From a virus: DNA of 45,757 nucleotides. Position 1 is the stretch's first letter, and each line of letters starts with the position of its first letter. Below, in pieces: positions 13,528-45,757 of the stretch. The notes below the pieces were generated by a model. That model worked only from the letters and a program-made list of their open reading frames with translations, made no database searches and was not told the origin of the DNA. A program made the position numbers and the translations under genes. The stretch is from IMG/VR virus record IMGVR_UViG_3300045789_000403, positions 1 through 45,757 of that record, one strand, 5' to 3'.

Positions 13528-14682
13528 ATGGCGATCAGACCAGAAGACGAATATGGCTCCCGTGCAGCCCCAGCCGATGCGGACTACCCGCACGGTAGCG
13601 CGAAGAACGAAACCACGCCCGGGGCAGACGACGGAACACCCTACACAGCGGACTTCCGCAACGACCTGTGGGGCTTCTTTCAGCGGTTGCTTGAAGAGGC
13701 CGGAATCACGCCCAACGGCGACCCGGACACGGTGATCGACTCGCAGTATTGGGAGGGCCTACAGGCGGAAATCAACAAACAAACCCCTCGCCCCGCGTGG
13801 ACCAGCGCGACGCAAGTGGGTTCGGGGCTCTCTATCCCTGGGACGGCGGGGACGGCCCTTGCAGCCCTGAACGGCACCGACATCGCGTTTATTGATGGCG
13901 GGAACGAGCAACTCGAAACCTACCGGTTCAATTTCGGCACCGGGGTCTGGGTGCAAGTCGGGTCGAGTCTCACCGTGGCCGGCGCCGGGACGCCGGCCCT
14001 CGCGGCCCTGAACGGCACCGACGTGGCGTTTATTGACCTCAGCAACGGACAGCTCCAAACCTACCGATTTAATTTCGGCACCGAGACGTGGGCCCAGACC
14101 GGCGCAAGCCTTGCTATCGCCGGAATTGCCGAGCCAGCCCTTGCGGCTCTGAACGCCACCGACGTGGCGTTTATTGACGGTGGGAACGACGAATTGCGAC
14201 TTTATCGGCTCAACACCGGCACCGGGGTCTGGGCGCAAGTCGGGGCAAGCCTGCCGGTCGCATCTGTGCAGTTGCCAGCCCTCGCGGCCCTGAACGGCAC
14301 CGACGTGGCGTTTATTGACGGTGACAACGACGAATTACGACTTTATCGGTTTGATTTCGGCACCGAGACGTGGTCGCAGGTGGGCGCCAGCCTGTCGGTT
14401 TTCACCGGGGACCGACCAGCCCTTGCGGCGCTGAACGGCACCGACGTAGCGTTCATCGAGGGGACCGACGACGCGCTGGTTGTTTATCGGTTCGATTTCA
14501 GCGCCGAAACGTGGTCGCAGATCGGACCCGCCACGCCCACACCGGTGAACGGTTTCCCGGCCCTGGCCGCCCTGAACGGCACCGACGTGGCGTTTATTGA
14601 CTCAAGCGACGAGGATTTAATCACCTACCGGTTCAATTTCTCAATCGGGACACCGTACAGTGCGGCGGGGGGTGCGTTCTGA
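13528..14682 (+). CDS. Tail fibre with six propeller-like repeats
   Basis: A 384-residue protein. The N-terminal about 95 residues (KNETTPGADDGTPYTADFRNDLWGFFQRLLEEAGITPNGDPDTV) are a conserved phage-fibre attachment module. From about residue 96 there are six repeats of about 47 residues, each ALAALNGTDVAFIDxxN, LxxYRFxFGTxxWxQVG and SLxV. The strand pattern and number suggest a six-bladed beta-propeller acting as receptor-binding tip. The repeats are similar at DNA level, so blade shuffling by recombination is possible. Part of blade five is also found in the early gene at 23356-24189. Confidence 0.8.
   Translation: MAIRPEDEYGSRAAPADADYPHGSAKNETTPGADDGTPYTADFRNDLWGFFQRLLEEAGITPNGDPDTVIDSQYWEGLQAEINKQTPRPAWTSATQVGSGLSIPGTAGTALAALNGTDIAFIDGGNEQLETYRFNFGTGVWVQVGSSLTVAGAGTPALAALNGTDVAFIDLSNGQLQTYRFNFGTETWAQTGASLAIAGIAEPALAALNATDVAFIDGGNDELRLYRLNTGTGVWAQVGASLPVASVQLPALAALNGTDVAFIDGDNDELRLYRFDFGTETWSQVGASLSVFTGDRPALAALNGTDVAFIEGTDDALVVYRFDFSAETWSQIGPATPTPVNGFPALAALNGTDVAFIDSSDEDLITYRFNFSIGTPYSAAGGAF
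13860..14640 (+). repeat. Six ~141-bp in-frame repeats in tail fibre gene
   Basis: The motif CTGAACGGCACCGACGTGG (with small variants) recurs about every 135-141 bases, encoding the ALNGTDVAF strand of each blade. A TGGNNGCAGNTNGG-type segment encodes WxQVG. The variation between copies is partly synonymous, so the repeats are older than the exact 18-bp array in the gpFI-like gene. Confidence 0.88.
14361..14427 (+). repeat. Tail-fibre segment shared with early gene
   Basis: Partner of 23905-23971 (opposite strand, about 91% identical over 67 bases). Here it is a natural part of the repeated propeller blade (GTETWSQVG, then a SLSV strand), so this copy is probably ancestral. Confidence 0.9.
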
Positions 14683-21300: not shown

Positions 21301-22194
21301 TTATGCGCGGGGCAGCGCGTTGATCTGATCGTCGGACCACTTGGACGCCCGCAACTGCTCGCGGGTGTAAATCTGTCCGTTCAGATTGAACTGCTCGGGT
21401 GCTGCAGGCGCCTGCGGTGCCGGAGCAGCCGGGGCGGGTGCAGCGGGCGGGGCACCTGCGTCGCCCGGGCCGTTCAGGAAGTCCGTGGCGGGCTGTACCG
21501 GGGCAGCCGGAGCGGCAGGCGCCTGCGGTGCTGCTGGCTGTTGGGCCGGTGCACCGGGGACAGGCATCGCACCGGACGGGGCCGCACCGGCCGCACCACC
21601 GAACGCGGCGCCGGGGTCCGGGGCGTCGCCGAGGATCGGTTCACCCTGGAAATCATGGCTGAACATGGTCGGGTTGATGTACAAGCCGGGGGACTGGCTC
21701 GGGCCGTTACCCTTCACACTCACAGCCAAACGACCGTAATCGCCGCGCTTAATCACGCTGGTGTCGATGATCTGGTCGGTCATCGGGTCATATTTACCGT
21801 TCGGGTAGCAGCGAACCTGCAGTTCAGTCGTGGCCTTAACAATCCAATGGCCCGGGAAACCTTCACGATCGCAGTTGCGTTTGCCGTTACGGTTGGGGAT
21901 CTGGCTATCACCGTCTTCCACCTTGAAATGAAAATCGTTGCGCTGCCATTCACCGTTGGGCCAGTCCTGCTGGGCACGCTGGTGGATCTGCTGACCCCAT
22001 GCGGTCTGGTTCCACTGCTGTTCGCCTGTTTTCTCAATGGCGACGGCCACGAAAATACGGCTGCGCGGCTGACCCATCTGGTCCAGCTTCACCTGACCAG
22101 TGTTATCGTCGGTGACCGGCTGGCGTTCCATCGGGTGACCCTGAACGATGCGACCCGGGGGTAGGGTCAGGTCGAGAAATTTCGATTCACTCAT
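21301..22194 (-). CDS. Enc34-type ssDNA-binding protein
   Basis: A 297-residue protein from ATG 22194. Residues about 1-185 match the phage Enc34 ssDNA-binding family (DUF2815): LDLTLPPGRIVQGHPMERQPV, RSRIFVAVAIEKTGEQQWNQT, LQVRCYPNGKYDP, GRLAVSVKGNG and GLYINPTMF. Residues about 195-280 are a long Ala/Pro/Gly-rich linker, and the end (REQLRASKWSDDQINALPRA) may be a partner-binding tip. It coats single-stranded DNA in replication and recombination. It overlaps the nuclease stop by 8 bases. Confidence 0.88.
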   Translation of the reverse strand: MSESKFLDLTLPPGRIVQGHPMERQPVTDDNTGQVKLDQMGQPRSRIFVAVAIEKTGEQQWNQTAWGQQIHQRAQQDWPNGEWQRNDFHFKVEDGDSQIPNRNGKRNCDREGFPGHWIVKATTELQVRCYPNGKYDPMTDQIIDTSVIKRGDYGRLAVSVKGNGPSQSPGLYINPTMFSHDFQGEPILGDAPDPGAAFGGAAGAAPSGAMPVPGAPAQQPAAPQAPAAPAAPVQPATDFLNGPGDAGAPPAAPAPAAPAPQAPAAPEQFNLNGQIYTREQLRASKWSDDQINALPRA

Positions 22195-23353
22195 TGCTAA
22201 ATGCCTCTTTTGCTTGTTGCCCGTCATCGGGTACGAGTTTAAAACCTGTTTGACCTTGCGTAGAGTATTGCTTAATTAACGCCGGGTCAATACCTAAATT
22301 ACGCGCCTGGTTCGGCGTGATTGCCTGGGGTGGCTTGGCCAGATCCTTGCCAAGCATCTGACCCAACATGATCACCTCGGTATCAGGTCGCGCCCACGTC
22401 TGGCGACCATACGTCGGTTCAGTGGTCCAGCCCGGTACGACCTCACCGCGTTTGATGGCCGCGACCATTTGTGTGGTGAAACCCTCCCGCAGCGACTTGA
22501 TGTGTTCATACGCCCGGTCGAGATACGACTTATATGCACCCATAGCCGCCGGTAACGGTTGCATCGGTAACGACACACTGGTGGCCTCGAACATGGACAC
22601 GCCCGCACGAATCGCCGGTTCGCAAGCGTGACGGCCAGGGCAGTGCTTACAGTGACTGCCGGTCCGTGCGGTGGCACCTGGTCCGGTCGCTTCGCCTGCG
22701 TTGTTTGCCATCTGGTTGATGTAGCTGCGCAGATCCGACGCCAGCACGACCCACTCACGGATCGGGCCCTTGCGGTGCGGCGCTCGGGGTTGGACGACAC
22801 GCAGCACGACGTGGGTGTACTGGTCGGCGTGACCGTTGATATCGTGCAGGCCCAACAAACCGGCGACGTAATCCATCATCTGCCAGTTCTCGAACGCCTC
22901 GACCACATCGAACCCGAACTTGTAGTCCCAAACGTACAGAAACCCATGCTGCTTGGCCCACAACGAGCAATCAGGTGTGCCGCCGTTCTGGTCAATGTGG
23001 ACCCTGGGGATGTCAACGTACTGCTCAACCCGCAAACCCTCACCACCAAACACACCATGGTCGCGCATCACGTTGATCACGTTGTCGGCGTAGAGTTTCG
23101 CACCGACGTACATTTCGTGGGTGAACGGCACACCGTTAGACGCGACGCGCCCCTCGAACGCTTTCCAGTCGGGGAATTGCGCCCGCGTCCCGGCGTCGAT
23201 CAGCTCGGCGCCGATTTCGTGGGACGCCTCGCCCTCCTCGGCCTCGGGTGATGACGTGTCCGGGAACGCCGCGGCGACCTGCGGGTACATGGTACACCCG
23301 CCCGGCTTGCCCCAAATGTGCGCCGCTGACGGCGCGAGGAACTTGTGACCCAT
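22187..23353 (-). CDS. RecB/Cas4-like nuclease (DUF2800 type)
   Basis: A 388-residue protein; ATG 23353 has GGGAG at suitable distance, while the in-frame TTG six bases upstream does not. PD-(D/E)XK elements: HEIGAELI near residue 45, GTPD (Asp about 128), and VWDYKFG (Asp about 143, Lys about 145). A Cys cluster (CKHCPGRHAC, near 235) probably carries an iron-sulfur site with other Cys. DUF2800 proteins stand next to the Enc34-type SSB in many phages, as here, and are thought to be exonucleases for recombination or end processing. Confidence 0.85.
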   Translation of the reverse strand: MGHKFLAPSAAHIWGKPGGCTMYPQVAAAFPDTSSPEAEEGEASHEIGAELIDAGTRAQFPDWKAFEGRVASNGVPFTHEMYVGAKLYADNVINVMRDHGVFGGEGLRVEQYVDIPRVHIDQNGGTPDCSLWAKQHGFLYVWDYKFGFDVVEAFENWQMMDYVAGLLGLHDINGHADQYTHVVLRVVQPRAPHRKGPIREWVVLASDLRSYINQMANNAGEATGPGATARTGSHCKHCPGRHACEPAIRAGVSMFEATSVSLPMQPLPAAMGAYKSYLDRAYEHIKSLREGFTTQMVAAIKRGEVVPGWTTEPTYGRQTWARPDTEVIMLGQMLGKDLAKPPQAITPNQARNLGIDPALIKQYSTQGQTGFKLVPDDGQQAKEAFSNE

Positions 23354-24215: not shown

Positions 24216-24243
24216 TTGACGAGGGGTCACATTATGATATGGT
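24216..24243 (+). promoter_or_regulatory. Rightward early promoter (helicase operon)
   Basis: TTGACG (24216-24221), a 16-base spacer and TATGGT (24238-24243) precede the helicase ATG at 24273. The upstream TTGTTGAC...GGGGT block is shared with the promoters at 30873 and 33739. It overlaps the oppositely directed promoter in the same gap. Confidence 0.55.
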
Positions 24244-27433: not shown

Positions 27434-27642
27434 AGTTATTTATCACACCATTCACCGTCGAGCCGCTGCGCTGTACCGCGGCGTCAACCGACGCAGGAGT
27501 CGACACGCTCGAACAGGTCGCGGCGATGTTCGGCAAACCGGTGCAGTCGAGGGGTAATCATCGGGTGTTTGGCGATGGTAACGACCGGGTCATTGTGGGG
27601 CCGATGCCATTTTGCGTTGACCCGTCGGGAACTAGTATATAA
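27430..27642 (+). CDS. Small unknown protein
   Basis: A 70-residue protein, start overlapping the nuclease stop (ATGA). The middle (DTLEQVAAMFGKPVQSRGNHRVFGDGNDRVIVGP) looks like a small alpha/beta fold. No family recognised. Its last codons contain the promoter of the next gene. Confidence 0.65.
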   Translation: MKLFITPFTVEPLRCTAASTDAGVDTLEQVAAMFGKPVQSRGNHRVFGDGNDRVIVGPMPFCVDPSGTSI

Positions 27643-27645
27643 TAT
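27617..27645 (+). promoter_or_regulatory. Sigma70-like promoter, TTGACC/TAATAT
   Basis: TTGACC (27617-27622), a 17-base spacer and TAATAT (27640-27645); an overlapping TATAAT lies at 27638-27643. Both hexamers and spacing are identical to the promoters at 30873 and 33739. It drives the tandem-HTH regulator and the primase-helicase. Confidence 0.75.
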
Positions 27646-27675: not shown

Positions 27676-28179
27676 ATGGATTCAACAACACTAATGCACA
27701 TCGCCCGGAAACAGGCGGAAAAACACGGGCTTATGTCCCTGACGGTGCCGGGATTGTGTGACGCGGCCAACATCCCGGTGGGTAGCTTTCACCATGTGGC
27801 GAAGATGAAATTCGCCGACCTGATCGAAGCGTTACGGGGTACGGTGCCGGATCACGTCGAGGGTGTGGCGTACGAGCGCCGAGTCAGCGGCCCGCTTCGC
27901 CGGTCACAGATGGTTGCCGCCGCCCTGTCCCTGGCCCGTGAACACGGTTACGACCGTGTGACCAGCCCCATGGTGGCGGATGCGGTCGGGCTCAGTAAGG
28001 CCTCGGTAATGCACCGGTTTGGCACCATGGACGAGATGCGCCGCGCTGTGATGCGTGAGGCGGTGAAAACCGGTGATGCCTTGGTTGTGGCTCAGGGGTT
28101 GGCGGCTCGGGACGATATAGCGGTAAACGCGCCGGAGAACGTAAGGGCAGCAGCACTCGAACACCTCGCACACTTATAA
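27676..28179 (+). CDS. Tandem TetR-type HTH regulator
   Basis: A 167-residue protein with two TetR_N-like units and no ligand-binding domain. Unit 1 is about residues 5-55 (ARKQAEKHGLMSLTVPGL...VGSFHHVAKMKFADLI). Unit 2 is about 78-130 (AALSLAREHGYDRVTSPMVADAVGLSKASVMHRFGTMDEM). Each has the helix, turn and aromatic 'FHHV/MHRF' ending of TetR proteins. A protein with two linked HTHs could bind a direct or inverted site as a monomer. It sits behind its own strong promoter, so it may be an early regulator, perhaps autoregulated. AGGTGG precedes the ATG. Confidence 0.75.
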   Translation: MDSTTLMHIARKQAEKHGLMSLTVPGLCDAANIPVGSFHHVAKMKFADLIEALRGTVPDHVEGVAYERRVSGPLRRSQMVAAALSLAREHGYDRVTSPMVADAVGLSKASVMHRFGTMDEMRRAVMREAVKTGDALVVAQGLAARDDIAVNAPENVRAAALEHLAHL

Positions 28180-28197: not shown

Positions 28198-30855
28198 ATG
28201 CAGTCATTACCCGAGGCGCTGTTACCACTCGCAGCGCACAGGCAGTTTATCCTCTATAAACTGACGCCCAGCACCAAAAAGCCCGGGAAAATGGATAAAT
28301 ACCCGGTTGATCACCGCACCTTGCAGGTTTACGCGAAGGGTTCGGACTGGCAGAACGACCCGGACGCTTGGACGACGTTCGAGCACGCATCGGCTTGCGC
28401 CACGATGGCCGGCACGAACCACGCTGTGGGCTTTTTCCTGCGCGATGACGACCCGTTTTTTTTCGTGGATCTGGACGAGTGCCTGAATCCGGAGGGGTCG
28501 GGCTGGTCCGCCGTCGCCATGGACTTGATGGGAATGCTGAACGGCGCGGCTGTTGAGATCTCGCAGTCCGGGCGGGGCCTTCACATCATCGGCACCGGGA
28601 CCAGCCCTGAACATGCGTGCAAAAACACTTCGCTCGGTCTGGAAATGTACACCGGCAAGCGTTTCATCGCCCTGACCGGCACGAACACCATTGGCAGCGC
28701 AGCCGTAAACCTCACAACCGCATTGCCCGCCGTGGTGAACAAGTATTTCACCGCCAGCAACCGCAAACCCCTGCAGGAATGGACCAGCGCCCCAGTACCG
28801 GACTACACCGGCCCGATCGACGACGCGCAATTGATCGAACGGGCGATGAACAGTCGCAGCGCCTCGGCGGCGTTTGGCGGTAAGGCGTCATTTGCCGACC
28901 TGTGGCAGTGCAACACCGAGGCGCTGGCGGACGCGTACCCGGATGACGTGTTGGGCACCGGCTCCAGGGCGTTCGATGCCAGCAGCGCCGACGCAGCCCT
29001 TGCGCAGCATCTGGCTTTCTGGACCGGCAAGGATTGCGCCCGGATTCTGCGCTTGATGTGGCAGTCACGGCTTGTGCGGGACAAATGGAATCGTGACGAC
29101 TACCTCGAACGCACCATCCTGAATGCCTGCGCGAACCAGTCCGACACGCTGACCGGGACGAACGATGGTGGCCCGAAGCTGTCAGGCAGCCTCAAGCAAC
29201 AGGAGTACGCAAAACAGATCCGGGCGGGCGTGCTGGCTCAGGCCAACGGTGAGCAGGTAGCGCTACTGACAGCGACCCACGGCCCCGCAGTCAACGCGAA
29301 ATTCTGGATCGACCACAAGGCCGAGACGCCCGCACAGCTTGCCGAGCGGTGCCGCCCGGTTGATCTTGGTACAACCGCAGCGCCGCCAGCGCCAGCGCCC
29401 GGGTCGGCGGCTGATGTGCCCCAGGGCGCCGAGATCCGTGTCGGCTATCAGTACCTTGCGGCGGAACAGCAGATTGAGTATTTCCGGGGTTGTGTCTACG
29501 TCCAGTCCGCCCACGCTGCGCTTACGCCGGACGGCGAACTACTCAAGCCGGAACGGTTCAACGCGGTTTACGGTGGGTATTCGTTCCAGCTTGAGGCGGA
29601 TGGTTCGGGCAAGACGACCCGCAAGGCCTGGGACGCGTTCACCGAGTCACAAGCCGTGACGTTCCCGAAGGTGGCTAGCACCTGCTTTCGCCCCGATCTG
29701 GCGCCGGGTCAGATCATCGTGGAAGACGGCCGGCGCATGGCGAACGCTTACGTTCCCATCGACACGCCCCGAAAGCAGGGTGACCCGGCGCCGTTTCTGT
29801 GCCATCTGGAAAAGCTGCTGCCCGACCCGGGCGACCGGGCCATTCTACTTGCCTACATGGCGGCCTGTGTGCAGCACAAAGGGGTGAAATTCCAGTGGGC
29901 GCCGTTGATTCAGGGCGCTGAGGGCAACGGCAAAACCCTGTTCACCCGTTGCGTGGCGTTCGCCATCGGGGAGCGTTACACGCACCTGCCGCCCGCTGAG
30001 CACCTGACCGAGAAATACAACGAATGGCTGTTCGACAGGTTGTTTATCGGGGTTGAGGATGTGTATGTGCCGGAGCACAAACGCGAGGTCATCGAGACGC
30101 TGAAACCCATGATCACCAACACCCGGTTGGCCATGCGGGCCATGCAGCAATCCCAGGTGATGCGGGATGTGTGCGCGAATTTCATCTTGAACACGAATCA
30201 TAAGGACGGGATCAGGAAGACGACCAGCGACCGTCGGTTTTGTGTGTTCTATACCGCTCAACAGTCGATTGCCGACATCGAGCGAGACGGCCTCGGGGGT
30301 GATTATTTCCCCGATCTGTACGACTGGCTGAAGGGTACGGGTCGGTACGCCCGTGAGGGTGCCGGCCACGGTTACGCCATCGTGTCGGATTACCTGATGG
30401 CCTACAGCATCCCAGACGAACTCAACCCGGCCCGGTCGTGCCATCGGGCACCGACCACAACATCCACCACGGCGGCCATCGCAGCAGGCCTGGGCGGTGT
30501 CGAGCAAGAGATCTGCGAGGCCATCGAGGAAGGTCGCCCTGGGTTTGCCGGTGGGTGGGTGTCGTCCGTGGCCCTGGATCGCCTGCTAACCGTAGGGCGC
30601 ACCAACCGGGCCATACCGATCAACAAGCGGCGCGAGCTGCTGCAGGCGCTCGGGTACGACTGGCACCCGGCGTTGAACGAGGGTCGGGTCAATAACGCGA
30701 TACCAATGGACGACAACAAGAAACCCCGTCTGTTCATCCGGTCCGGCCACATCCACGCGAACCTGACAACCACCGCCGAGGTGGTGAAGGCTTACATCGA
30801 GGCACAATCCGCGGCGACCGTTCCGCCCGGTTCGGCGGCTGAGGCGTTCCGATGA
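28198..30855 (+). CDS. NrS-1-like primase-polymerase/helicase
   Basis: An 885-residue protein. N-terminal archaeo-eukaryotic primase-like part: VDLDE (metal Asp 91 and 93) and SQSGRGLHIIG (His 129), as in the NrS-1 phage primase-polymerase. The C-terminal part is a SF3/D5-like helicase with Walker A QGAEGNGKT (572-580, Lys 579), Walker B with E620-D621, and the DUF5906-type downstream region (FILNTNHKDGIRKTTSDRRF). A winged-helix-like end follows. It should prime and unwind at the phage origin, working with the separate polymerase encoded on the other arm. Confidence 0.87.
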   Translation: MQSLPEALLPLAAHRQFILYKLTPSTKKPGKMDKYPVDHRTLQVYAKGSDWQNDPDAWTTFEHASACATMAGTNHAVGFFLRDDDPFFFVDLDECLNPEGSGWSAVAMDLMGMLNGAAVEISQSGRGLHIIGTGTSPEHACKNTSLGLEMYTGKRFIALTGTNTIGSAAVNLTTALPAVVNKYFTASNRKPLQEWTSAPVPDYTGPIDDAQLIERAMNSRSASAAFGGKASFADLWQCNTEALADAYPDDVLGTGSRAFDASSADAALAQHLAFWTGKDCARILRLMWQSRLVRDKWNRDDYLERTILNACANQSDTLTGTNDGGPKLSGSLKQQEYAKQIRAGVLAQANGEQVALLTATHGPAVNAKFWIDHKAETPAQLAERCRPVDLGTTAAPPAPAPGSAADVPQGAEIRVGYQYLAAEQQIEYFRGCVYVQSAHAALTPDGELLKPERFNAVYGGYSFQLEADGSGKTTRKAWDAFTESQAVTFPKVASTCFRPDLAPGQIIVEDGRRMANAYVPIDTPRKQGDPAPFLCHLEKLLPDPGDRAILLAYMAACVQHKGVKFQWAPLIQGAEGNGKTLFTRCVAFAIGERYTHLPPAEHLTEKYNEWLFDRLFIGVEDVYVPEHKREVIETLKPMITNTRLAMRAMQQSQVMRDVCANFILNTNHKDGIRKTTSDRRFCVFYTAQQSIADIERDGLGGDYFPDLYDWLKGTGRYAREGAGHGYAIVSDYLMAYSIPDELNPARSCHRAPTTTSTTAAIAAGLGGVEQEICEAIEEGRPGFAGGWVSSVALDRLLTVGRTNRAIPINKRRELLQALGYDWHPALNEGRVNNAIPMDDNKKPRLFIRSGHIHANLTTTAEVVKAYIEAQSAATVPPGSAAEAFR

Positions 30856-30862
30856 ACGGTGG

Positions 30863-30949
30863 TTATTAGTTGTTGACCTTGGGGTTAGTTGACCCTAATA
30901 TGAACACATCAACAACGCAGACAGGACGAACCGACCATGAAGACTTTCA
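30863..30949 (+). repeat. 87-bp promoter/leader repeat, copy 1
   Basis: 83 of 87 bases match 33729-33815. The repeat spans the promoter, the whole untranslated leader with AGGA ribosome site, and the first 13 coding bases (both proteins start MKTF). It heads the first small-gene cassette. Confidence 0.95.
30873..30901 (+). promoter_or_regulatory. Sigma70-like promoter of cassette 1
   Basis: TTGACC (30873-30878), a 17-base spacer and TAATAT (30896-30901), close to consensus. A second TTGACC lies in the spacer. RNA would start near 30908, giving a leader of about 30 bases. Confidence 0.82.
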
Positions 30950-31158
30950 CCGCTGAAAACATCCTGAAAAACGAAACTGTAGCTGCAACCATCCTGATCG
31001 ACGCACTCAAGTTGATCGCCGAAACCAACGGCACCACGGTTCATAAAGCCGCTGAGGCGTACAAACTGGGCGTCAAAGTTGTCGTATCCGATGTTGAGCG
31101 ACTGGCCCTTGCCGGCGCCCAAGAACTGGCTGACCGACTGAACAAGGTGGCCGCGTGA
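30937..31158 (+). CDS. Small unknown protein, cassette 1 leader gene
   Basis: A 73-residue helical protein (ILKNETVAATILIDALKLIAETNG, KLGVKVVVSDVERLALAGAQELADRL). No family recognised. It begins with the same MKTF codons as the leader gene of cassette 2 but is otherwise different. Strong promoter and ribosome site suggest high early expression, as for host take-over or anti-defence proteins (inference). Confidence 0.75.
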   Translation: MKTFTAENILKNETVAATILIDALKLIAETNGTTVHKAAEAYKLGVKVVVSDVERLALAGAQELADRLNKVAA

Positions 31159-31319
31159 GCGGCCCGATAGTCTGGGCAGTGAACGCGAAAATGGAGCGAG
31201 TTGTATTCTGTATGAATTGTCGGGAAGTCTTTCAGCGAAAGATTAAAACAGCAATAAAGGCAAGAGAAGTCAAGGAAAAGGCAGAAAACGAACACCAATG
31301 TGGAGAACAAGACCGATGA
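31155..31319 (+). CDS. Small Cys-containing protein
   Basis: A 54-residue frame starting with GTG on the previous stop (GTGA) and ending in ATGA overlap with the next. It contains FCMNC and a later Cys, possibly a zinc knuckle, within a Lys/Glu-rich helix. Lower GC than its neighbours. No function recognised; coupling at both ends supports it. Confidence 0.55.
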   Translation: MSGPIVWAVNAKMERVVFCMNCREVFQRKIKTAIKAREVKEKAENEHQCGEQDR

Positions 31320-31450
31320 CCGAATCAATTGATCAAGCCGCTCACAACGTTCAGCGCAAGCCGGAGGAGCGGGGCGGGACGATTCAGATCGACGGTTCGT
31401 TTCCGAACGGTGCCGAAGCGCAAGCCATTGTGATGGGGATGCGACCATGA
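31316..31450 (+). CDS. Very small unknown protein
   Basis: A 44-residue frame (TESIDQAAHNVQRKPEERGG...QAIVMGMRP) with ATGA overlaps at both ends. Support comes only from this coupling and the chain of such genes; no motif is visible. Confidence 0.5.
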   Translation: MTESIDQAAHNVQRKPEERGGTIQIDGSFPNGAEAQAIVMGMRP

Positions 31451-31665
31451 ACAACATCAAGCGAGTGGTTGGGCCACTGACCGGACACAGTTTCTACCAG
31501 GCTCGGGTTCACCGTGGTGTAGTGTTCGCCCGCACCCGAGTCGAGATCGAGCGGAAAGTGGTGATGACGTACCGCTACCGCACCCGAGTGGGTGGTGTGG
31601 TCGTTGAGGGCGAAACGTGGGCCCAATTCCGGGCCAAGCTGAGTGAGGTGGTTAATCATGGTTGA
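31447..31665 (+). CDS. Small basic beta-rich protein
   Basis: A 72-residue basic protein (KRVVGPLTGHSFYQARVHRG, VVMTYRYRTRVGGVVVEGETWAQFRAKL). Alternating hydrophobic residues indicate beta strands. No family recognised. It overlaps both neighbours. Confidence 0.62.
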   Translation: MNNIKRVVGPLTGHSFYQARVHRGVVFARTRVEIERKVVMTYRYRTRVGGVVVEGETWAQFRAKLSEVVNHG

Positions 31666-32095
31666 AGATATTTTCATTGTGTTGGTGAGCGGCTTGGCCG
31701 TCATCGCCCTGCTGATCCACATGGAACGGCGTTACATCGAGTCCGGCACGGGTCGACCTGCCGGCGTGAGGCTGACACCGAGCGACAAGGCACTGATTGG
31801 GTGTTGCGTGGCGGGCATGGTCGGGCTTGTGTTGCTGTTGGTGCTACTGCCGGTACCTGCCAGGGCTGCGGTTTTAGCGGACTGCTTGATGGGGGAGTTC
31901 ACCGACGAACCGGCCGATGTGCGCGGTTATCACACGGTGATATTGCGCGAGGACGGGCGGCGGGCGATGTATCGGCACCTACCCGAACAGCGCGCTTACC
32001 AGATATTTGCAGGCAACGGACCGCAAATGCAGCCGGATTATTTGTGCTTGGGGCCGCTGGGCACGGTTAACGATGAAGGGGACAACAATGAGTGA
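31658..32095 (+). CDS. Membrane protein with two segments
   Basis: A 145-residue protein. First membrane segment about 5-26 (IFIVLVSGLAVIALLI), a polar loop, second about 50-70 (GCCVAGMVGLVLLLVLLPV), then an ARA-type site and a C-terminal soluble domain with Cys (ADCLMGEF...DYLCLGP). Topology puts the C-terminal domain in the periplasm. An early membrane protein could act in superinfection exclusion, but there is no direct evidence. Confidence 0.65.
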   Translation: MVEDIFIVLVSGLAVIALLIHMERRYIESGTGRPAGVRLTPSDKALIGCCVAGMVGLVLLLVLLPVPARAAVLADCLMGEFTDEPADVRGYHTVILREDGRRAMYRHLPEQRAYQIFAGNGPQMQPDYLCLGPLGTVNDEGDNNE

Positions 32096-33041
32096 TTCAG
32101 TGAGAGAGGCGTTTGAGGCGCACTCAATGAAAGAGTATGGCGCAGTTGGACAGCGAGACGATGGGCGATACATGAGCCCTGTTACTCAGCATGATTGGAA
32201 GGTTTGGCAAGCCGCTGTTCAGTGGGCCGCCCTTAGCGCCAATGATGGGGAGTTTGTAGCGAGCGACCTAAAAGCCGCGTTCATGGAAGGGCAACGGAGT
32301 GCCACGGGGCGCAAGGGCACCGAGTTTCGCTGGATTCATAGTGAGACCCGGCGCAAAGCAGAGAGCCACCCCGCCCCGCCATCTGTTGCGGTGCTGGGTG
32401 GGTGGACCATCGAACGAGGCCCTGAAAAGAACGGTTTTGGTACCTTTTGCGGCGATTATCTGCGGATTTCTCCTCCCGAAGGGGGGCCGCCCGGCGCACT
32501 TATCGACATGGATAAGCTTTGTGGTGATTTGAGTCACGGCACGCACCTACTGCGTGATCTGGCGGTGTCCCTGCTCACCGCCGCCCCATCCCCCGACCAT
32601 ATTGCCGACGCCGGGAAAATGATCCCAGCGCATGAGGGTGTACCGAAAATGGGTGTGCCGGTTGTCGGCTACAACCCTGCCTGGATTGACCCGGATTTCA
32701 ATGATCGAGGCTACCGTGAGTGCTTCACCTACGGTGACGCTACGGTGCCGGGTGGCGAGTGGCACACAGCCAAGTGGGTAGACGGCGCAGACCAATACGA
32801 AACTACGGATGAAGCAGCCACCCATTGGTTCCACATGGTGCCAGCATCAAGCAAGGCATCAAGCGCCACCGCCCTAGCAACGGCTGAGGCGAGGATTGCG
32901 GAGCTGGAGAAGGCCCTGGAACCGTTTGCCATGACAGAGGCTCAAATTGATGCAATGCAAGACTGCCATGGCGTGGTCGAAGCGCCGCACCACGCGTCTG
33001 ATCACCGCCGCGCCGCCGCCCTGCTCAAGGGGAAGGAGTGA
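32088..33041 (+). CDS. Ead/DUF551-like accessory protein
   Basis: A 317-residue protein from ATG 32088 (MSDSVREAFEAHSMKEYG). Middle region with LLTAAPSPD; residues about 180-250 (VPKMGVPVVGYNP...GEWHTAKW...THWFHMVP) resemble the DUF551/Ea8.5-type module, ending in the characteristic T-H-W-x-x-x-P. The C terminus is an Ala-rich helix. Such mosaic proteins are frequent in accessory regions of lambdoid phages; function is unknown. Codon use looks less GC-biased than neighbours, hinting at transfer. Confidence 0.65.
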   Translation: MSDSVREAFEAHSMKEYGAVGQRDDGRYMSPVTQHDWKVWQAAVQWAALSANDGEFVASDLKAAFMEGQRSATGRKGTEFRWIHSETRRKAESHPAPPSVAVLGGWTIERGPEKNGFGTFCGDYLRISPPEGGPPGALIDMDKLCGDLSHGTHLLRDLAVSLLTAAPSPDHIADAGKMIPAHEGVPKMGVPVVGYNPAWIDPDFNDRGYRECFTYGDATVPGGEWHTAKWVDGADQYETTDEAATHWFHMVPASSKASSATALATAEARIAELEKALEPFAMTEAQIDAMQDCHGVVEAPHHASDHRRAAALLKGKE

Positions 33042-33283
33042 TGTCAAAAGAACGAACCGGGTGTGAGGCTCGGGTGGTGGGTGACGAGTGGCACTGTGGT
33101 CGGTGCGGCCTGCAGTGGGACATAAACGACGGCGATCCGCCCGAGTGCTTGGGGTTGCAGCTAAAACCTAACGCGGTGATGACACCGACGCACCCCAGGT
33201 ATTTTAAAGGCGAGGCGGACCCACCGGACGACCCGCTGGCTGAGGCCCGGGCTATTCTTGCATCTGACTCTAAGGTCAGGTAA
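33041..33283 (+). CDS. Small zinc-binding-like protein
   Basis: An 80-residue protein; ATG 33041 overlaps the previous stop, with AAGGAG just upstream. CGRCGLQW and further Cys (GCEA, PPECLG) suggest one zinc site. Acidic Pro-rich tail. No family recognised. Confidence 0.65.
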   Translation: MSKERTGCEARVVGDEWHCGRCGLQWDINDGDPPECLGLQLKPNAVMTPTHPRYFKGEADPPDDPLAEARAILASDSKVR

Positions 33284-33340
33284 AACTAAAAGCCTCCCCG
33301 CAAGGGATTATTAACCAACCACCAACACAAGGGACGAAAA

Positions 33341-33646
33341 ATGGCGAAATCATTGTTTTCGATTTGCCTGTTGATCGCTTCAGCACTGGCCTGGTCGAGC
33401 ATGCCCGACGAAGGGCATCGCGAAGTCGGTTGCGTCGACGCGGTTGCTGTTATGGCAGACACCGGAGTGACTCACAGCGTGGATGATGTGACCAAGCTGG
33501 AGCAACCCCGAGAAGTCCGAAGTATCGCAACCGTCGCCCACGCGGAACACGTCGGGCAAGGTTATCGGGGTGCAGCAACCACCAGGGTGATCGGGCCCGG
33601 ATCGAGTGGTGTTACCAGAACCGCCAGCAACCCGCCCGACATTTGA
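33341..33646 (+). CDS. Small putatively secreted protein
   Basis: A 101-residue protein with AGGGA before the ATG and an N-terminal signal peptide (AKSLFSICLLIASALAWS). The mature part is polar (DDVTKLEQPREVRS...) with one Cys. Not recognised. It is last before the terminator of cassette 1. Confidence 0.5.
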   Translation: MAKSLFSICLLIASALAWSSMPDEGHREVGCVDAVAVMADTGVTHSVDDVTKLEQPREVRSIATVAHAEHVGQGYRGAATTRVIGPGSSGVTRTASNPPDI

Positions 33647-33674
33647 CCCCGCTCAAGCCAAGCAGCGTCGATCG

Positions 33675-33703
33675 AAAACCCGCCCACCGAGGCGGGTTTT
33701 TTT
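33675..33703 (+). terminator. Rho-independent terminator of cassette 1
   Basis: AAAACCCGCC (33675-33684), loop CACCGA, GGCGGGTTTT and a run of seven T (33697-33703). Perfect stem, well placed between the two cassettes. Confidence 0.92.
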
Positions 33704-33728
33704 ATTGCCTACCGTTCGTCGGGTCGGT

Positions 33729-33815
33729 TTATTACTTGTTGACCTCGGGGTTAGTTGGTCCTAATATGAACACATCAACAACGCAGACAGGACGAACCGA
33801 CCATGAAGACTTTCA
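33729..33815 (+). repeat. 87-bp promoter/leader repeat, copy 2
   Basis: Second copy of 30863-30949 with four differences, none in the -35/-10 hexamers or ribosome site. It begins right after the terminator and heads cassette 2. Confidence 0.95.
33739..33767 (+). promoter_or_regulatory. Sigma70-like promoter of cassette 2
   Basis: TTGACC (33739-33744), a 17-base spacer and TAATAT (33762-33767), identical in hexamers and spacing to the promoters at 27617 and 30873. Confidence 0.82.
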
Positions 33816-33985
33816 AAAACATAATCGCAGAGAAATCCAGCACCGTTACCACCATTCAGTTTGCCCAGGGTGAAAAACCAACCGAGTTCGGTAAATGGGC
33901 TGAGGTGGACGAGATCGAATTGGATATGTCCGGTGCCGTGCATCTTCACCGCATTGGCGGAACAACCTACTTCGGCAGACTGTGA
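33803..33985 (+). CDS. Small unknown protein, cassette 2 leader gene
   Basis: A 60-residue protein beginning MKTF like the cassette 1 leader gene, then diverging (KNIIAEKSSTVTTIQFAQGEKP...AVHLHRIGGTTYFGRL). Mostly beta-like pattern. No family recognised. High expression is expected from the promoter and leader. Confidence 0.7.
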   Translation: MKTFKNIIAEKSSTVTTIQFAQGEKPTEFGKWAEVDEIELDMSGAVHLHRIGGTTYFGRL

Positions 33986-33999
33986 GGGGAGCTAAACCA

Positions 34000-34548
34000 A
34001 TGAAACAATGCCAATGCGAAGGGTGCAAGCGGGCCAGAATGCCCGAGTCAGTGGGTTACCAGCCCTGCGCGGGCGGCCCGTACCGTGACAAACCCAACGG
34101 CCTAGCCGCCCTGATGGTGATTGTGGTCGTTGTGGGTCTGCTGGGGCTGTCACTGCTGATCAACCCGGTTCACGCGGGTGAGGTGCGGCTGCTAGGCGGT
34201 GGGTGGTCATACCACACGGACCGGTCGGAGTATTACAACGAGCAACACCACATGGTCGGGCTTGCCTGGCGGGGTTGGTCGGCGATAGCGTTCGAGAACA
34301 GCGAACCGGCTGACGGCGGCGAGTCGGGTCCAGGGTCCGAGGCGTATGGTATCGGCCACGAATGGATGTACCCGGTCGGCCGGTTCGTTGAGCTGGGCGG
34401 GTACGCCGGGGTCTGGACCGGTTACGAGGACTGGCCACATGGGCGACCCGTGGCGGCACTGCGGGGCCGGTTCACTCTGGATCGGTTCGGCGTGTCCGTC
34501 TCGACCGTTGGGGTGGTTACCACGCTGCATCTGGAGTGGGCGTTGTGA
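34000..34548 (+). CDS. Putative outer-membrane beta-barrel protein
   Basis: A 182-residue protein from ATG 34000, with GAGGGGAG upstream. A Cys/Lys-rich start (KQCQCEGCKR) precedes a hydrophobic signal-like segment (about 36-56, LMVIVVVVGLLGLSLLI) and an HAG cleavage-like site. The mature part has GGWSYHTDRSEYYNEQHHMVGLAW, W-x-A-I-A-F-E-N-S, and alternating strands to the C-terminal W-A-L. This resembles a family of small barrels in phages and bacteria with the S-Y-H-x-D-R...Y-N-E signature. Likely exported to the outer membrane, possibly to block a receptor. Confidence 0.65.
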   Translation: MKQCQCEGCKRARMPESVGYQPCAGGPYRDKPNGLAALMVIVVVVGLLGLSLLINPVHAGEVRLLGGGWSYHTDRSEYYNEQHHMVGLAWRGWSAIAFENSEPADGGESGPGSEAYGIGHEWMYPVGRFVELGGYAGVWTGYEDWPHGRPVAALRGRFTLDRFGVSVSTVGVVTTLHLEWAL

Positions 34549-34826
34549 ACTGCCCGCACTGTGGTCACCACCTGACCGACGTGGTGGATACGCGCACCAC
34601 ACCCGAAGGGGATCTGAGACGCCGCCGTCGGTGCCGGTCGTGCGGTGGGAAGTGGTCGACCGTGGAACTGGCGGTGGTAATCGACGGTGAAACCGATTTT
34701 CGTGGGGCTGCCTGGCGCATGGCGTTCGAGCAAGTCCTGATCCGACGCGCCCGCGTGGCGTTCCGGGCGCGGCTGCGTGATGCGGTCGAGCCGATTAAAC
34801 AACTGTTGAATGAGGTGGAACTATGA
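34545..34826 (+). CDS. NrdR-like zinc-ribbon protein B
   Basis: A 93-residue protein; GTG 34545 overlaps the previous stop, with GGAG at 34533-34536. CPHCGHHLTDVVDTRTTPEG followed by RRRRRCRSCGGKWSTVE is very close to the NrdR zinc-finger consensus (CPxC...D-S-R...G...RRRRxC-x-x-C...F-T-T-x-E). The ATP-cone is absent and replaced by a basic helical tail. It may compete for NrdR sites or regulate phage genes. Confidence 0.75.
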   Translation: MNCPHCGHHLTDVVDTRTTPEGDLRRRRRCRSCGGKWSTVELAVVIDGETDFRGAAWRMAFEQVLIRRARVAFRARLRDAVEPIKQLLNEVEL

Positions 34827-35131
34827 AAACAGCCTATATTGTGTGGAACAAGGACAAAACCGAGGGGTTCGTCACGACCGACAAGGGCGTTGCGTATGAA
34901 GCGCGTAAGGGTGCGAAAACGAACTGTTTCGATGCTGAAGGTCGGGTTTCCACCCTTGCGATTCGCTTTTGTGATCTGTACAGCGACAGGGAAGATTGCA
35001 CCATTCAGCCGATCGACCTGGGTGTCATCGAAGCGATTGAACAGCACCAAGCTGGCGAGGGGACCGTAATGTTCGATATTCCGGAATACCCTCAATTGGT
35101 GGGGCGTGGCAAGCGAGGTGATAAGCGATGA
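34823..35131 (+). CDS. Unknown small protein
   Basis: A 102-residue protein, ATGA overlaps at both ends. The N-terminal part (TAYIVWNKDKTEGFVTTDKGVAYEARKGA) looks like a small alpha/beta fold found in phage accessory proteins. No function recognised. Confidence 0.68.
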   Translation: MKTAYIVWNKDKTEGFVTTDKGVAYEARKGAKTNCFDAEGRVSTLAIRFCDLYSDREDCTIQPIDLGVIEAIEQHQAGEGTVMFDIPEYPQLVGRGKRGDKR

Positions 35132-35493
35132 TCAGATTCACACCGAGTTGCAAGTTTAACGTGAACGGGCAGTGTTCAAAGCTGCGCGTCAAATGCCTGG
35201 AGTCCCGGTTCATGGGCATCGGCGGGGTCGAGTTCGGGCATTGTACAATCCGCGAGACTGTGCCGTTCCCGCCGATGCCGAAGGGTGTAAAACGACCAGC
35301 ACCGCAACGCATCAGCGCGTTAGCCCAGGGGTCGCCCGCAAAAAGCACCGACAACCAGTGTAAGAATTGCATGGTTCGTCACATGGTTGCGGTTGCTGAC
35401 GGTCTGGAAAAGAGCGGTGATATGGCTGGTGCTTTTGTTCTCAGGAAAATGGCTGAGCCGTGCCTGGGCGAGTGCTGTGGGGCGAAACGATGA
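35128..35493 (+). CDS. Cys-rich unknown protein
   Basis: A 121-residue protein with many Cys (positions about 8, 16, 23, 39, CKNC near 78-81, and CLGECC near the end), likely binding zinc or an iron-sulfur cluster. A helical segment (VADGLEKSGDMAGAFVLRKMAE) lies near the C terminus. No family recognised. Confidence 0.68.
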   Translation: MIRFTPSCKFNVNGQCSKLRVKCLESRFMGIGGVEFGHCTIRETVPFPPMPKGVKRPAPQRISALAQGSPAKSTDNQCKNCMVRHMVAVADGLEKSGDMAGAFVLRKMAEPCLGECCGAKR

Positions 35494-35822
35494 CTCTCGG
35501 ATCTCTCGGGCCGGACTGTGACGGGCGACCCATCTTCCCGGGTGATCGGGTTGGGCCGGCGCCGGGGTGTGAAGACGTACAGGATTGGGTGCCCGCCCCA
35601 CCGTGGACGGCTGCCAGGTCATCGAGTCGGCCGGGGTACTTGGTCATTGAGGAACGCGCTACCGATGACGGGAAGCCGCTAGACGCCCCGAGCAGGAAAC
35701 TGAGGCGGCCTCGAAGCGGGTACGAAGCGGCAGACGGGAGGCTTGAGAGTGTTCTAAGCAGCTTGCAGGGTGATTTTACCCAAGCAAAACCCCGAGCCGT
35801 TCCCGCTGTTCGGGGTGGTTAG
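35490..35822 (+). CDS. Small unknown protein with SH3-like part
   Basis: A 110-residue protein from ATG 35490 overlapping the previous stop. CDGRPIFPGDRV, YLVIEE and LDAPSRKLRRP match a common small phage protein in which a short beta barrel is followed by a basic tail. The last 35 residues look unstructured. Function unknown. Confidence 0.6.
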   Translation: MTLGSLGPDCDGRPIFPGDRVGPAPGCEDVQDWVPAPPWTAARSSSRPGYLVIEERATDDGKPLDAPSRKLRRPRSGYEAADGRLESVLSSLQGDFTQAKPRAVPAVRGG

Positions 35823-35921
35823 CTTTCTCAATAAAAACAACCGGTTAGCGTGCTTGTACCCCTTCTATTCTAAAAACCCCGTACTCGGGTCACACTCTCA
35901 CGCGGGGGTGTCGCTTCCTGT

Positions 35922-36016
35922 AGCGGCGCCGCTCCGCTATACTCCCTACAGCCCTTCCCCTTTATTATATACTATTTTTATATATATTAAGGGTAATAGT
36001 AGTAGTATATATAAGG
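35922..36016. other. AT-rich island with palindromes
   Basis: A GC-rich perfect palindrome AGCGGCGCCGCT (35922-35933) is followed by about 55 bases of almost pure A/T (35961-36016) in a GC-rich genome. Arms CCTTTATTATATACTA (35959-35974) and TAGTATATATAAGG (36003-36016) are imperfect inverted repeats. The non-coding gap is 35823-36042. It could be an origin unwinding element, a regulatory site for the next gene, or a recent insertion scar. Confidence 0.65.
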
Positions 36017-36042
36017 AAATCAACAACATAGGAGCACCCCGA

Positions 36043-36537
36043 ATGTCCGGGAAAGTTCGGGGTCTGTCATGGGCAGACCTCATAGCATACGATCCGATTG
36101 GTGGTTCACTCGTGTGGACGGTCCGGCGTGGTTTTACCAAGCCGGGACATGTGGCCGGCGCGACCGTGAACGGTTATTTCTATGTGACTTTGGACGGGAA
36201 GCGTTACCCGGGTGCGGCGATAGCGTGGGAGCTGATGACAGGCAGGAAGCCGAGGCACCGGATTCACTTCGCAAACGGTGACCGGTCTGATCTGCGATGG
36301 GCCAACATTTGTGCCCGTAAGGGCGGTCAGCTTGCAGACGTGGACATCGGCCTGACGACCACTCCGCACGGGACACTCGTGCAGTGGGTTGAGGACGGTA
36401 AACCTGTGAGTTCGCTTACCGTGAAAGATCCGCTTAAACTGGTCGAAATTCTCAGCCAGTGGGTGGCTACGAATGTTCAGCATCGACGACACACAACTCA
36501 AAGGCCTGGAGCAGGATCTGAAGAACTTCGCGGCTGA
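36043..36537 (+). CDS. HNH-family protein, possibly catalytically altered
   Basis: A 164-residue protein with AGGAG before ATG 36043. It follows the HNH homing-type pattern: YDPIGGSLVW, AGATVNGYFYVTLDGKRYPGAAIAWELMTGRKP and IHFANGDRSDLRWANI. The second His and N-G-D are kept, but the position usually occupied by the first His (A-H-R-L-A-W) reads A-A-I-A-W. It may be a weak or dead nuclease that still binds DNA. Its 3' end overlaps the next gene by about 65 bases. Confidence 0.75.
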   Translation: MSGKVRGLSWADLIAYDPIGGSLVWTVRRGFTKPGHVAGATVNGYFYVTLDGKRYPGAAIAWELMTGRKPRHRIHFANGDRSDLRWANICARKGGQLADVDIGLTTTPHGTLVQWVEDGKPVSSLTVKDPLKLVEILSQWVATNVQHRRHTTQRPGAGSEELRG

Positions 36538-41972: not shown

Positions 41973-42726
41973 GCATTTTAGCGCCGACATTGACGCCGAA
42001 ATCGCCATCGGCCTGGGCACCGTGGACGGCGTGTCGAACTGGTTCATGTTCGGGGCGTTCAATAATTTTCAGCAGGATGTTGAGCGGGATCTAACATGGC
42101 TGCCTGTGACGTCAAGCATTCCGTTGCCCGCTATCGCTGGTGAATCACTGGAGATCGTAAGCAGTGACGCGGCCGATGTGGGTACGGTCATCGAGATCGA
42201 CGCACTTGGCCCCGATGCAGTTGAGCTTGAAACGTTCACCGTCGAGCTAAACGGCACAACCCCGGTTGCGCTACCCGGTTCGATTTCCAGAATCAATCAA
42301 GCGGACAGCGTGGACCCGGACGGGTTCGCCGGCACCGTGACGATTCGCGGCGCTGGTGGCGGAACAGCGTACGCCCTGATGCGCCCGGAAGACCAGCAAA
42401 TGAATCAGGCGCTGTACACCGTGCCGACTGGTAAAAAATGGAACGTCGCGTTGCTGATTGCAACAATCCAGCGGTCGCAGGGTAGTGATAACGACGCGAG
42501 GGTTTCAGTCAGATTTAAAGGCGTGAACCAAACCCGCTGGCGCCGACCGTTTACCTTTGGTGCACAGCGAAGCGGTAACAGCTCGGTTGATCTGCACAAC
42601 CGATACCCTACGATGGCTAACGGCCCGGTTGACATAAAATTATCGGCTGTTTCCTCAGTCAACGGTACGTCGGTGTCCGGCTGGGCTAGCGGGGTGCTTG
42701 TTGACTACACCGAACCAGCCGGATAG
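41965..42726 (+). CDS. Virion-associated beta-rich protein, unknown
   Basis: A 253-residue protein from ATG 41965 (GGGGGATG-rich ribosome site), overlapping the portal stop. All-beta pattern with repeated Val/Thr strands (TVELNGTTPVALPGSI, GTVTIRGAGGGTAYAL, LSAVSSVNGTSVSGWASGVLVDY). Position between portal and protease suggests a head-surface or vertex protein. Lambda has no equivalent here. Not recognised beyond that. Confidence 0.7.
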   Translation: MGEHFSADIDAEIAIGLGTVDGVSNWFMFGAFNNFQQDVERDLTWLPVTSSIPLPAIAGESLEIVSSDAADVGTVIEIDALGPDAVELETFTVELNGTTPVALPGSISRINQADSVDPDGFAGTVTIRGAGGGTAYALMRPEDQQMNQALYTVPTGKKWNVALLIATIQRSQGSDNDARVSVRFKGVNQTRWRRPFTFGAQRSGNSSVDLHNRYPTMANGPVDIKLSAVSSVNGTSVSGWASGVLVDYTEPAG

Positions 42727-42751
42727 TATCGGTTCAAATGGAGTGTAAACC

Positions 42752-45472: not shown

Positions 45473-45757
45473 ATGCCAAGCAACAAGGAAATCATCAACG
45501 ATATTCAAGCGTTGGCCGCCGAATTGGGTGAGCCGACTCCTAACACCGACGGTGCGAATAATGAAAAGCTGCTGAACATCGCCCGCGACTTGCGCCAGCG
45601 GTTGAAAGCGGCACCCAGCGCCGAGGAAGCCAAAGCAGCCGAGGAAGCCAAAGCAGCCGAGGAAGCCAAAGCAGCCGAGGAAGCCAAAGCAGCCGAGGAA
45701 GCCAAAGCAGCCGAGGAAGCCAAAGCAGCCGAGGAAGCCAAAGCAGCCGAGGAAGCC
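45473..45757 (+). CDS. gpFI-like head/packaging protein, N-terminal part
   Basis: ATG 45473 with AGGAA upstream. A 49-residue helical domain (NKEIINDIQALAAELG, NNEKLLNIARDLRQRLKA) is followed by the Ala-Glu-Glu-Ala-Lys-Ala array, open to the last base. The frame continues at base 1 and ends at 300; the complete protein is at least about 148 residues when the two array ends are overlapped. The N-terminal helices resemble those of lambda gpFI in spacing and position. Confidence 0.75.
   Translation, partial: MPSNKEIINDIQALAAELGEPTPNTDGANNEKLLNIARDLRQRLKAAPSAEEAKAAEEAKAAEEAKAAEEAKAAEEAKAAEEAKAAEEAKAAEEA
45620..45757 (+). repeat. 18-bp tandem repeat array, right contig end
   Basis: Identical over all 138 bases to positions 1-138. 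It has exactly the same partial last unit, as expected if the assembler closed a circle on the array or could not span it. Confidence 0.97.

Follow-up and report, generated by a model that had tools for sequence, protein, structure and literature searches.

Phages gain small genes faster than the route to their expression is understood. The question of how a newly arrived gene comes to be transcribed and translated is raised by one locus in IMG/VR virus record IMGVR_UViG_3300045789_000403, all 45,757 bp of which were analysed (hereafter the window). Here an 87-bp block that includes a promoter and leader together with a ribosome site and 13 initial coding bases, i.e., the start codon plus ten more, stands at the head of two different sets of small genes, which we term cargo 1 and cargo 2. 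We consider it probable that the block is a phage expression-start cassette, which was copied behind a terminator and there heads a second unit of unrelated small genes.

A repeated gene start ahead of two sets of small genes

The features of the locus are as follows (ORF, open reading frame):

30863..30949, + strand: repeat block, copy 1, at the probable ancestral position (repeat finder, comparison with relatives)
30873..30901, + strand: promoter 1, TTGACC-17-TAATAT (sequence, promoter scan)
30902..30936, + strand: leader 1, same sequence as leader 2, includes the ribosome site
30937..31158, + strand: first gene of cargo 1, 73 residues, MKTFTAENIL..., no confident family
31155..33646, + strand: rest of cargo 1, small ORFs at 31155-31319, 31298-31450, 31447-31665, 31658-32095, 32088-33041, 33038-33283 and 33341-33646 (ORF list, family searches)
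33674..33701, + strand: intrinsic terminator with 12-bp stem (sequence, stem-loop scan)
33729..33815, + strand: repeat block, copy 2 (repeat finder, base count)
33739..33767, + strand: promoter 2, TTGACC-17-TAATAT (sequence, promoter scan)
33768..33802, + strand: leader 2 with ribosome site
33803..33985, + strand: first gene of cargo 2, 60 residues, MKTFKNIIAE..., unrelated to 30937-31158 past MKTF
34000..35493, + strand: rest of cargo 2, i.e., 34000-34548 (PagP-like by PHROG), 34536-34826 (NrdR-like zinc ribbon), and 34823-35131 and 35128-35493 (no assigned family)

Copy 1 begins 7 bp past the stop codon of a primase gene, and copy 2 stands about 2.9 kb downstream of it. A repeat finder grouped the two as a single two-copy family (95%), and a base-by-base count gave 83 matches in 87, the figure reported in an initial annotation made from the sequence. 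Because all four mismatches lie between 30869 and 30893 (at 30869, 30880, 30892 and 30893, in copy 1 coordinates), the 54 bases from 30896 to 30949, comprising the -10 box, the 35-nucleotide leader, the ribosome site, the start and the first 13 coding bases, are identical in both copies. The right edge is abrupt: within codon 5 identity falls to background at one point, and the DNA beyond it aligned with a score of 17, compared with a mean of 16.7 for shuffled sequences (880 of 2000 shuffles were as good). The pattern TTGACCnnGGGGTTAGTTGnnCCTAATAT, allowing up to three mismatches, had two matches in the window and none in 100 shuffles, and the whole record contains exactly two copies of the block. 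Both promoters were identified by a consensus-match scan; since the region scanned gave no more promoter-like sites than shuffled sequence, the case for them rests on the repeat and on the comparison with relatives.

The terminator before copy 2, also claimed in the initial annotation, is present. It reads GAAAACCCGCCC-ACCG-AGGCGGGTTTTT-TTATT, a 12-bp stem followed by a T run, and ends 27 bp before the block. A standard terminator scan did not list it, and it was found by eye and by a separate, strict stem-loop scan; the strict scan gave no terminator ahead of copy 1.

Past the shared MKTF, the first proteins of the two cargoes had a local BLOSUM62 score of 25, against 21.2 ± 3.8 for shuffled sequences, with 345 of 2000 shuffles as good; at a softer gap cost, 33 of 2000 were as good. 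Thus, at standard gap costs they are unrelated beyond these four residues, in agreement with the initial annotation. For this reason the pair of blocks does not appear to be the decayed remnant of an entire duplicated first gene, and a tandem duplication of that gene, which the annotation had named as the opposing arrangement, was not seen.

Promoter-leader units in related phages

For comparison we gathered 75 loci from viral contigs by means of the primase, and listed in them, by pattern, promoters followed by a leader, a ribosome site and an ORF. Many of these loci carry a related promoter and leader directly behind the primase, as in the window, and it is for this reason that copy 1 probably occupies the ancestral place, copy 2 being derived. 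Relatives hold up to four units of promoter, leader, cargo and terminator, and at least two promoter-like sites within 5.5 kb behind the primase were seen in 12 of the 44 non-redundant loci (the window included) that extend at least 2.5 kb beyond that gene. Within-genome similarity of promoter plus leader was highest in the window (0.93), with values of 0.79-0.91 in L037 (four minus-strand copies and one on the plus strand) and 0.75-0.88 in L041. Between genomes the 99th percentile was 0.73, and the top values listed above this came from near relatives.

Several relatives carry such units ahead of unrelated genes. In L041 four units follow one another; ATGACCAAATTC is common to copies 1 and 4, behind which the encoded proteins are unrelated, and by shuffle test the first proteins are unrelated in all six pairwise comparisons. 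This copying of the first four codons parallels MKTF in the window. In L013 a unit that begins and ends with the same terminator, and holds a promoter, a leader and a 74-codon gene in between, is found where L031 has a single terminator, with 898 bp beside it at 96.9% identity and the downstream part aligning too. An 83-bp segment of terminator, promoter and leader is 97.6% identical between L050 and L070, with unrelated proteins behind it, whereas their primases are 71.7% identical in DNA; this match has p ~3e-5 even assuming 83% identity, to which promoter constraint may add. L052 and L031 have primase ends 99% identical and promoter-leaders 88% identical, share their first 12 coding bases exactly, and then encode unrelated proteins, and by eye the gene behind the first promoter of L031 has a relative behind the second promoter of L020. 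The L013/L031 and L050/L070 patterns would fit gene exchange, although the crossovers themselves are unobserved. The anatomy of these units, their presence or absence at corresponding sites and their sharing in front of unrelated genes are direct observations.

The initial annotation had suggested that the block looks like a mobile expression start which captures new early genes. This reading is supported in general by the units in relatives, which are duplicated, gained or lost with direct repeats of the terminator, and shared between lineages with different cargo, but not for the exact 87-bp block itself. That units have been copied, gained and given new genes suggests that they provide a ready-made means of switching on newly acquired phage genes.

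Terminators are associated with the later units. A strict stem-loop plus T run was present within 120 nucleotides upstream of 6 of 15 later promoters and 1 of 29 first promoters (Fisher p = 0.004), compared with 8 of 164 other promoters and 53 of 8900 random positions. By eye, terminators also precede the second promoters of L013 and L020, which lie outside the strict count, and that of L003, although there the strict scan scored none.

Genes behind the post-primase promoter turn over rapidly. When pairs among the 26 loci with a usable promoter at this position were binned by primase-end identity, the first gene was homologous in 2 of 6 pairs at 90% or above, 1 of 14 at 80-90%, 1 of 35 at 70-80%, 1 of 124 at 60-70%, and none of 146 below. 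Among ten loci of one subgroup, blastn coverage was 94% for the primase end, 67% for the promoter-leader and 14% for the next 200 nucleotides, followed by 24%, 22% and, further on, 33%. Coverage being lowest there, the slot directly behind the promoter is the least shared part.

Most cargo proteins had no known function by family searches. Only 33038-33283 of cargo 1 has relatives among the primase loci, and cargo 2 forms an operon of about five genes. The proposal that the cargo is a likely place for host take-over or anti-defence factors found no support beyond database names such as the PagP-like PHROG. The latter is PHROG 3600 (PagP-like lipid A acylation/antimicrobial peptide resistance), which 34000-34548 matches at 1.6e-12 over 67 residues. 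Directly behind cargo 2 lies an HNH endonuclease gene (35770-36537), possibly a mobile element in its own right. In L041 a second repeated start block was observed, a GGGCCC hairpin with a ribosome site (L041:13180-13215 and L041:16548-16584), which separates gene 1 from gene 2 in both unit 1 and unit 3.

A palindrome over the -35 box and a TetR-like gene

The promoters share a feature that was absent from the initial annotation, as was the TetR-like gene described below. GTCA occurs at promoter positions 12-15 in 69 of 198 non-redundant promoters, against 0.7 expected with shuffled spacers (maximum 5 in 500 shuffles) and at most 4 at other offsets. Together with the -35 box it forms TGAC-N6-GTCA, an inverted repeat in fixed phase, found on both strands; the excess of 69 over 0.7 marks it as a shared feature. 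Positions 6 and 11 were complementary in 41 of the 69 pairs, a weak excess over the approximately 35 expected from column make-up by our own arithmetic. In a sister group (L050:9504, L070:12544 and L032:12542) the post-primase spacers hold another, longer palindrome of the ATAGATAAATAATTTATCTAT type, while L070 retains TGAC-N6-GTCA in the promoter of its TetR-like gene.

The window (45.8 kb, with a gpA-type terminase and a DUF5906 primase) carries upstream of copy 1 a replication module encoding a DNA polymerase, annealing protein, exonuclease, helicase, TetR-like protein and primase, of which the following concern us here:

21301..22227, - strand: Gp2.5-like single-stranded DNA-binding and annealing protein (phrog_7011, 2e-71; putative role in recombination)
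22187..23323, - strand: exonuclease adjoining the annealing protein (phrog_69, 3e-46)
27617..27645, + strand: promoter of the TetR-like gene, TTGACC-17-TAATAT, spacer unlike that of the block
27676..28179, + strand: TetR_N-type regulator, two tandem helix-turn-helix domains (Pfam, AlphaFold2), proposed controller of the promoters
28198..30855, + strand: DNA primase, DUF5906/NrS-1 pol-like, the conserved anchor ahead of copy 1

The promoter at 27617 was considered as a third copy of the block and dropped, because its agreement is confined to the hexamers and their spacing, with a different spacer and leader.

The TetR-like product matched Pfam TetR_N (5.4e-15) over residues 81-125, and an AlphaFold2 model (mean pLDDT 87) contained two helical bundles. 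When the halves were aligned, domain 1 resembled domain 2 with z = 4.3 in the window protein and 2.3 to 11.8 across 19 sequences. The top Foldseek matches were TetR-type, yet none passed E 0.001. The C-terminal ligand-binding and dimerization domain of the TetR family is absent from this protein of 167 residues, which has about 40 after the best-scoring TetR_N stretch. Relatives of the gene occur in Acinetobacter phage Scuro, Shewanella phage SppYZU01, Vibrio phages, and Klebsiella JD001-like and Edwardsiella MSW-3-like phages. Of 69 primase loci, 68 have a TetR-like stretch no more than 2.5 kb upstream of the primase (L045 being the exception), at a score limit that we chose without a negative control. 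The position of the gene near replication genes, together with the palindrome shared by the promoters, suggests a phage regulator, and its product is a natural candidate to bind the palindrome and to control the units.

As to the wider record, a search of genome contigs for a host gave none, the single close match being a 19-kb contig of a Zixibacteria metagenome-assembled genome; relatives of the terminase yielded no closer relatives of the cassette region, and an Rfam search of the window gave no match. The record looks circular, its ends (1-210 and 45548-45757) overlapping by 138 bp composed of a 9/18-bp repeat in an Ala/Glu/Lys-rich coding stretch. At 13832-14666 a 141-bp unit is repeated six times in tandem within ORF 13528-14682, giving a protein with 47-residue repeats. 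Between the divergent helicase and minus-strand operons, two promoter-like sites at 24216 (+) and 24257 (-) overlap and face each other, with a similar layout in relatives. A further promoter-like site (42701-42729, TTGACT-17-TAGTAT) precedes a 390-residue ORF beginning MWLLE, and promoter-like sites also stand ahead of similarly beginning ORFs in L078, L080 and L085.

Origin of the second copy and comparison with known systems

If the block is an expression-start cassette, its sigma-70-type promoter, leader with ribosome site and first codons would act as one piece, so that a gene joined to it would gain transcription and translation at once. The original would lie behind the primase, and the copy placed behind the terminator about 2.9 kb downstream would found a new transcription unit. 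We infer the route of copying, an early timing of expression and a common control of the units: short repeats in the leader, promoter or terminator may allow copies to form and to spread through homologous or annealing recombination, with the Gp2.5-like annealing protein and the exonuclease of the phage as probable helpers. A crossover within the first codons would give a new gene a ready start, sometimes fused to the first four codons, and the palindrome on the -35 box may let one phage regulator, perhaps the TetR-like protein, govern all units.

Several results weigh against this interpretation. The exact 87-bp block, a search for which in related phages the initial annotation had proposed as a check, was found in no other record, either with exact and relaxed patterns in viral contigs or by blastn in phage records; blastn of the block against 28 related records, run without a positive control, also gave no match. 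Transfer of the window's own block between phages therefore stays unobserved. Many relatives have no second promoter by pattern, some of the sites counted may not be real, and 9 of the 15 later promoters have no strict terminator upstream. The cargo region is mosaic throughout (coverage 0.14 in the first 200 nucleotides versus 0.22-0.33 beyond), so that turnover is not limited to the first-gene slot. The window promoters hold a weaker form of the palindrome, with GTTA (30873 and 33739) or GGAA (27617) instead of GTCA. Finally, partial Mantel tests of the TetR helix-turn-helix against the operator gave 0.318 for the post-primase promoter (10 of 2000 permutations) and 0.063 for the regulator's own promoter, but control positions 18-23 gave 0.316 and 0.296. 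This covariation is therefore no evidence for TetR binding.

A bolder version of the cassette explanation, which we regard as a tentative possibility, is that the block is a gene-start module that multiplies itself: the annealing recombination of the phage would copy promoter, operator, leader and first four codons together, and any reading frames landing behind them would become new early proteins with a constant N-terminus under one phage regulator. Such N-termini would be MKTF (window), MTKF (L041) and MTNQ (L052/L031) and, if this version is true, new phage genes could originate through fusion to a constant start. A rival proposal is a one-off local duplication, kept similar by selection for co-regulation or by gene conversion, with no tendency to move or to capture genes. 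The two copies in this genome, with none found elsewhere, would be explained by it, and so would the confinement of mismatches to the spacer and upstream part, since selection for expression predicts an identical -10 box, leader and start. We find it rather doubtful, because in relatives units are gained or lost and occur in common in diverged genomes, and one copy that arose independently includes the first codons.

That 30937-31158 and 33803-33985 are old paralogues, i.e., that the whole first gene was duplicated and the regulatory part alone stayed similar, is unlikely. The shared MKTF, the soft-gap alignment mildly above chance and a crude identity of 0.42 over the first 40 residues (the highest among the listed pairs, partly due to MKTF) speak for it, but at standard gap costs neither protein nor DNA gave a signal, and identity drops from 54/54 bases to background at one point. 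An even smaller chance attaches to the idea that the repeats are mainly repressor binding sites, like the stoperators or ESAS of mycobacteriophages, with identity of leader and start as a by-product. The fixed-phase palindrome in 69 of 198 promoters on both strands, and the finding that 68 of 69 loci have a TetR-like gene close to the primase, would suit this; however, the mismatches in the window touch the operator region or its immediate surroundings and spare the leader, the reverse of what it predicts, the window sites are degenerate at GTCA, and the regulator-operator covariation is not specific. It is scarcely credible that an assembly artefact placed one promoter twice: in its favour, the record is a viral contig with 138 bp of simple repeats shared by its two ends, but the copies differ at four bases and have unique flanks, and independent contigs show the same kind of arrangement.

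A portable unit that supplies a promoter, a ribosome site and start codons, with a terminator as its mark and perhaps one shared operator, would answer the question of expression for a widespread group of phages of 40-50 kb, and would mark where their newest genes are located. Morons of lambdoid phages are extra genes that bring their own promoter and terminator and that a related phage may lack. The L013 unit, compared with L031, resembles them in being an insert with its own promoter and terminator between genes that adjoin in the relative; for the window, no sufficiently close relative was found. The present system differs in that a single phage-specific block is the source of the promoter and leader copies, and in that the window unit is an operon of about five genes.

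The TetR-like gene of Oceanospirillum phage vB_OsaM_PD0307, whose TetR_N protein was matched by the window protein in tblastn, is described as auxiliary and antibiotic-related, with speculation about antibiotic survival (PMC10132091). In contrast to the antibiotic role given there, position and palindrome here suggest a phage regulator, which would give the gene a phage-internal role.

The SAS of Cluster K mycobacteriophages are 13-bp repeats at the ribosome site, with 11-19 per genome (PMC3203893); SAS and ESAS are repeats at gene starts, their inverted repeats are suspected to bind protein, and they are suggested as recombination targets. Like them, the present repeats are linked to starts and precede genes from different families; unlike them, they measure 87 bp, include a promoter, and number two per genome instead of 11-19 copies of 13 bp.

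The closest counterpart known to us is the promoter early stem-loop (PeSL) found in T4-type phages (Arbiol et al., 2010; Comeau et al., 2014, as cited in PMC4503421), in which a terminator stem-loop is combined with an early promoter. According to PMC4503421, PeSLs are dense where genes shuffle and are said to mediate shuffling among related T4-like phages. By analogy the present unit would work like one, a stem-loop terminator and a promoter being joined at copy 2 (33674-33701 and 33739-33767), with several copies ahead of small variable genes, i.e., two in the window and four in L041. Compared with PeSLs as described there, it differs in phage group, occurring in non-T4 genomes, mostly of 40-50 kb, that carry the primase/TetR-like module, with a gpA-type terminase and a plain TTGACC-17-TAATAT promoter in the window; it also extends over the whole leader with its ribosome site, in some cases into the first four codons, and its promoters have a palindrome overlapping the -35 box. 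If the cassette explanation is correct, it would extend the PeSL idea beyond T4-type phages.

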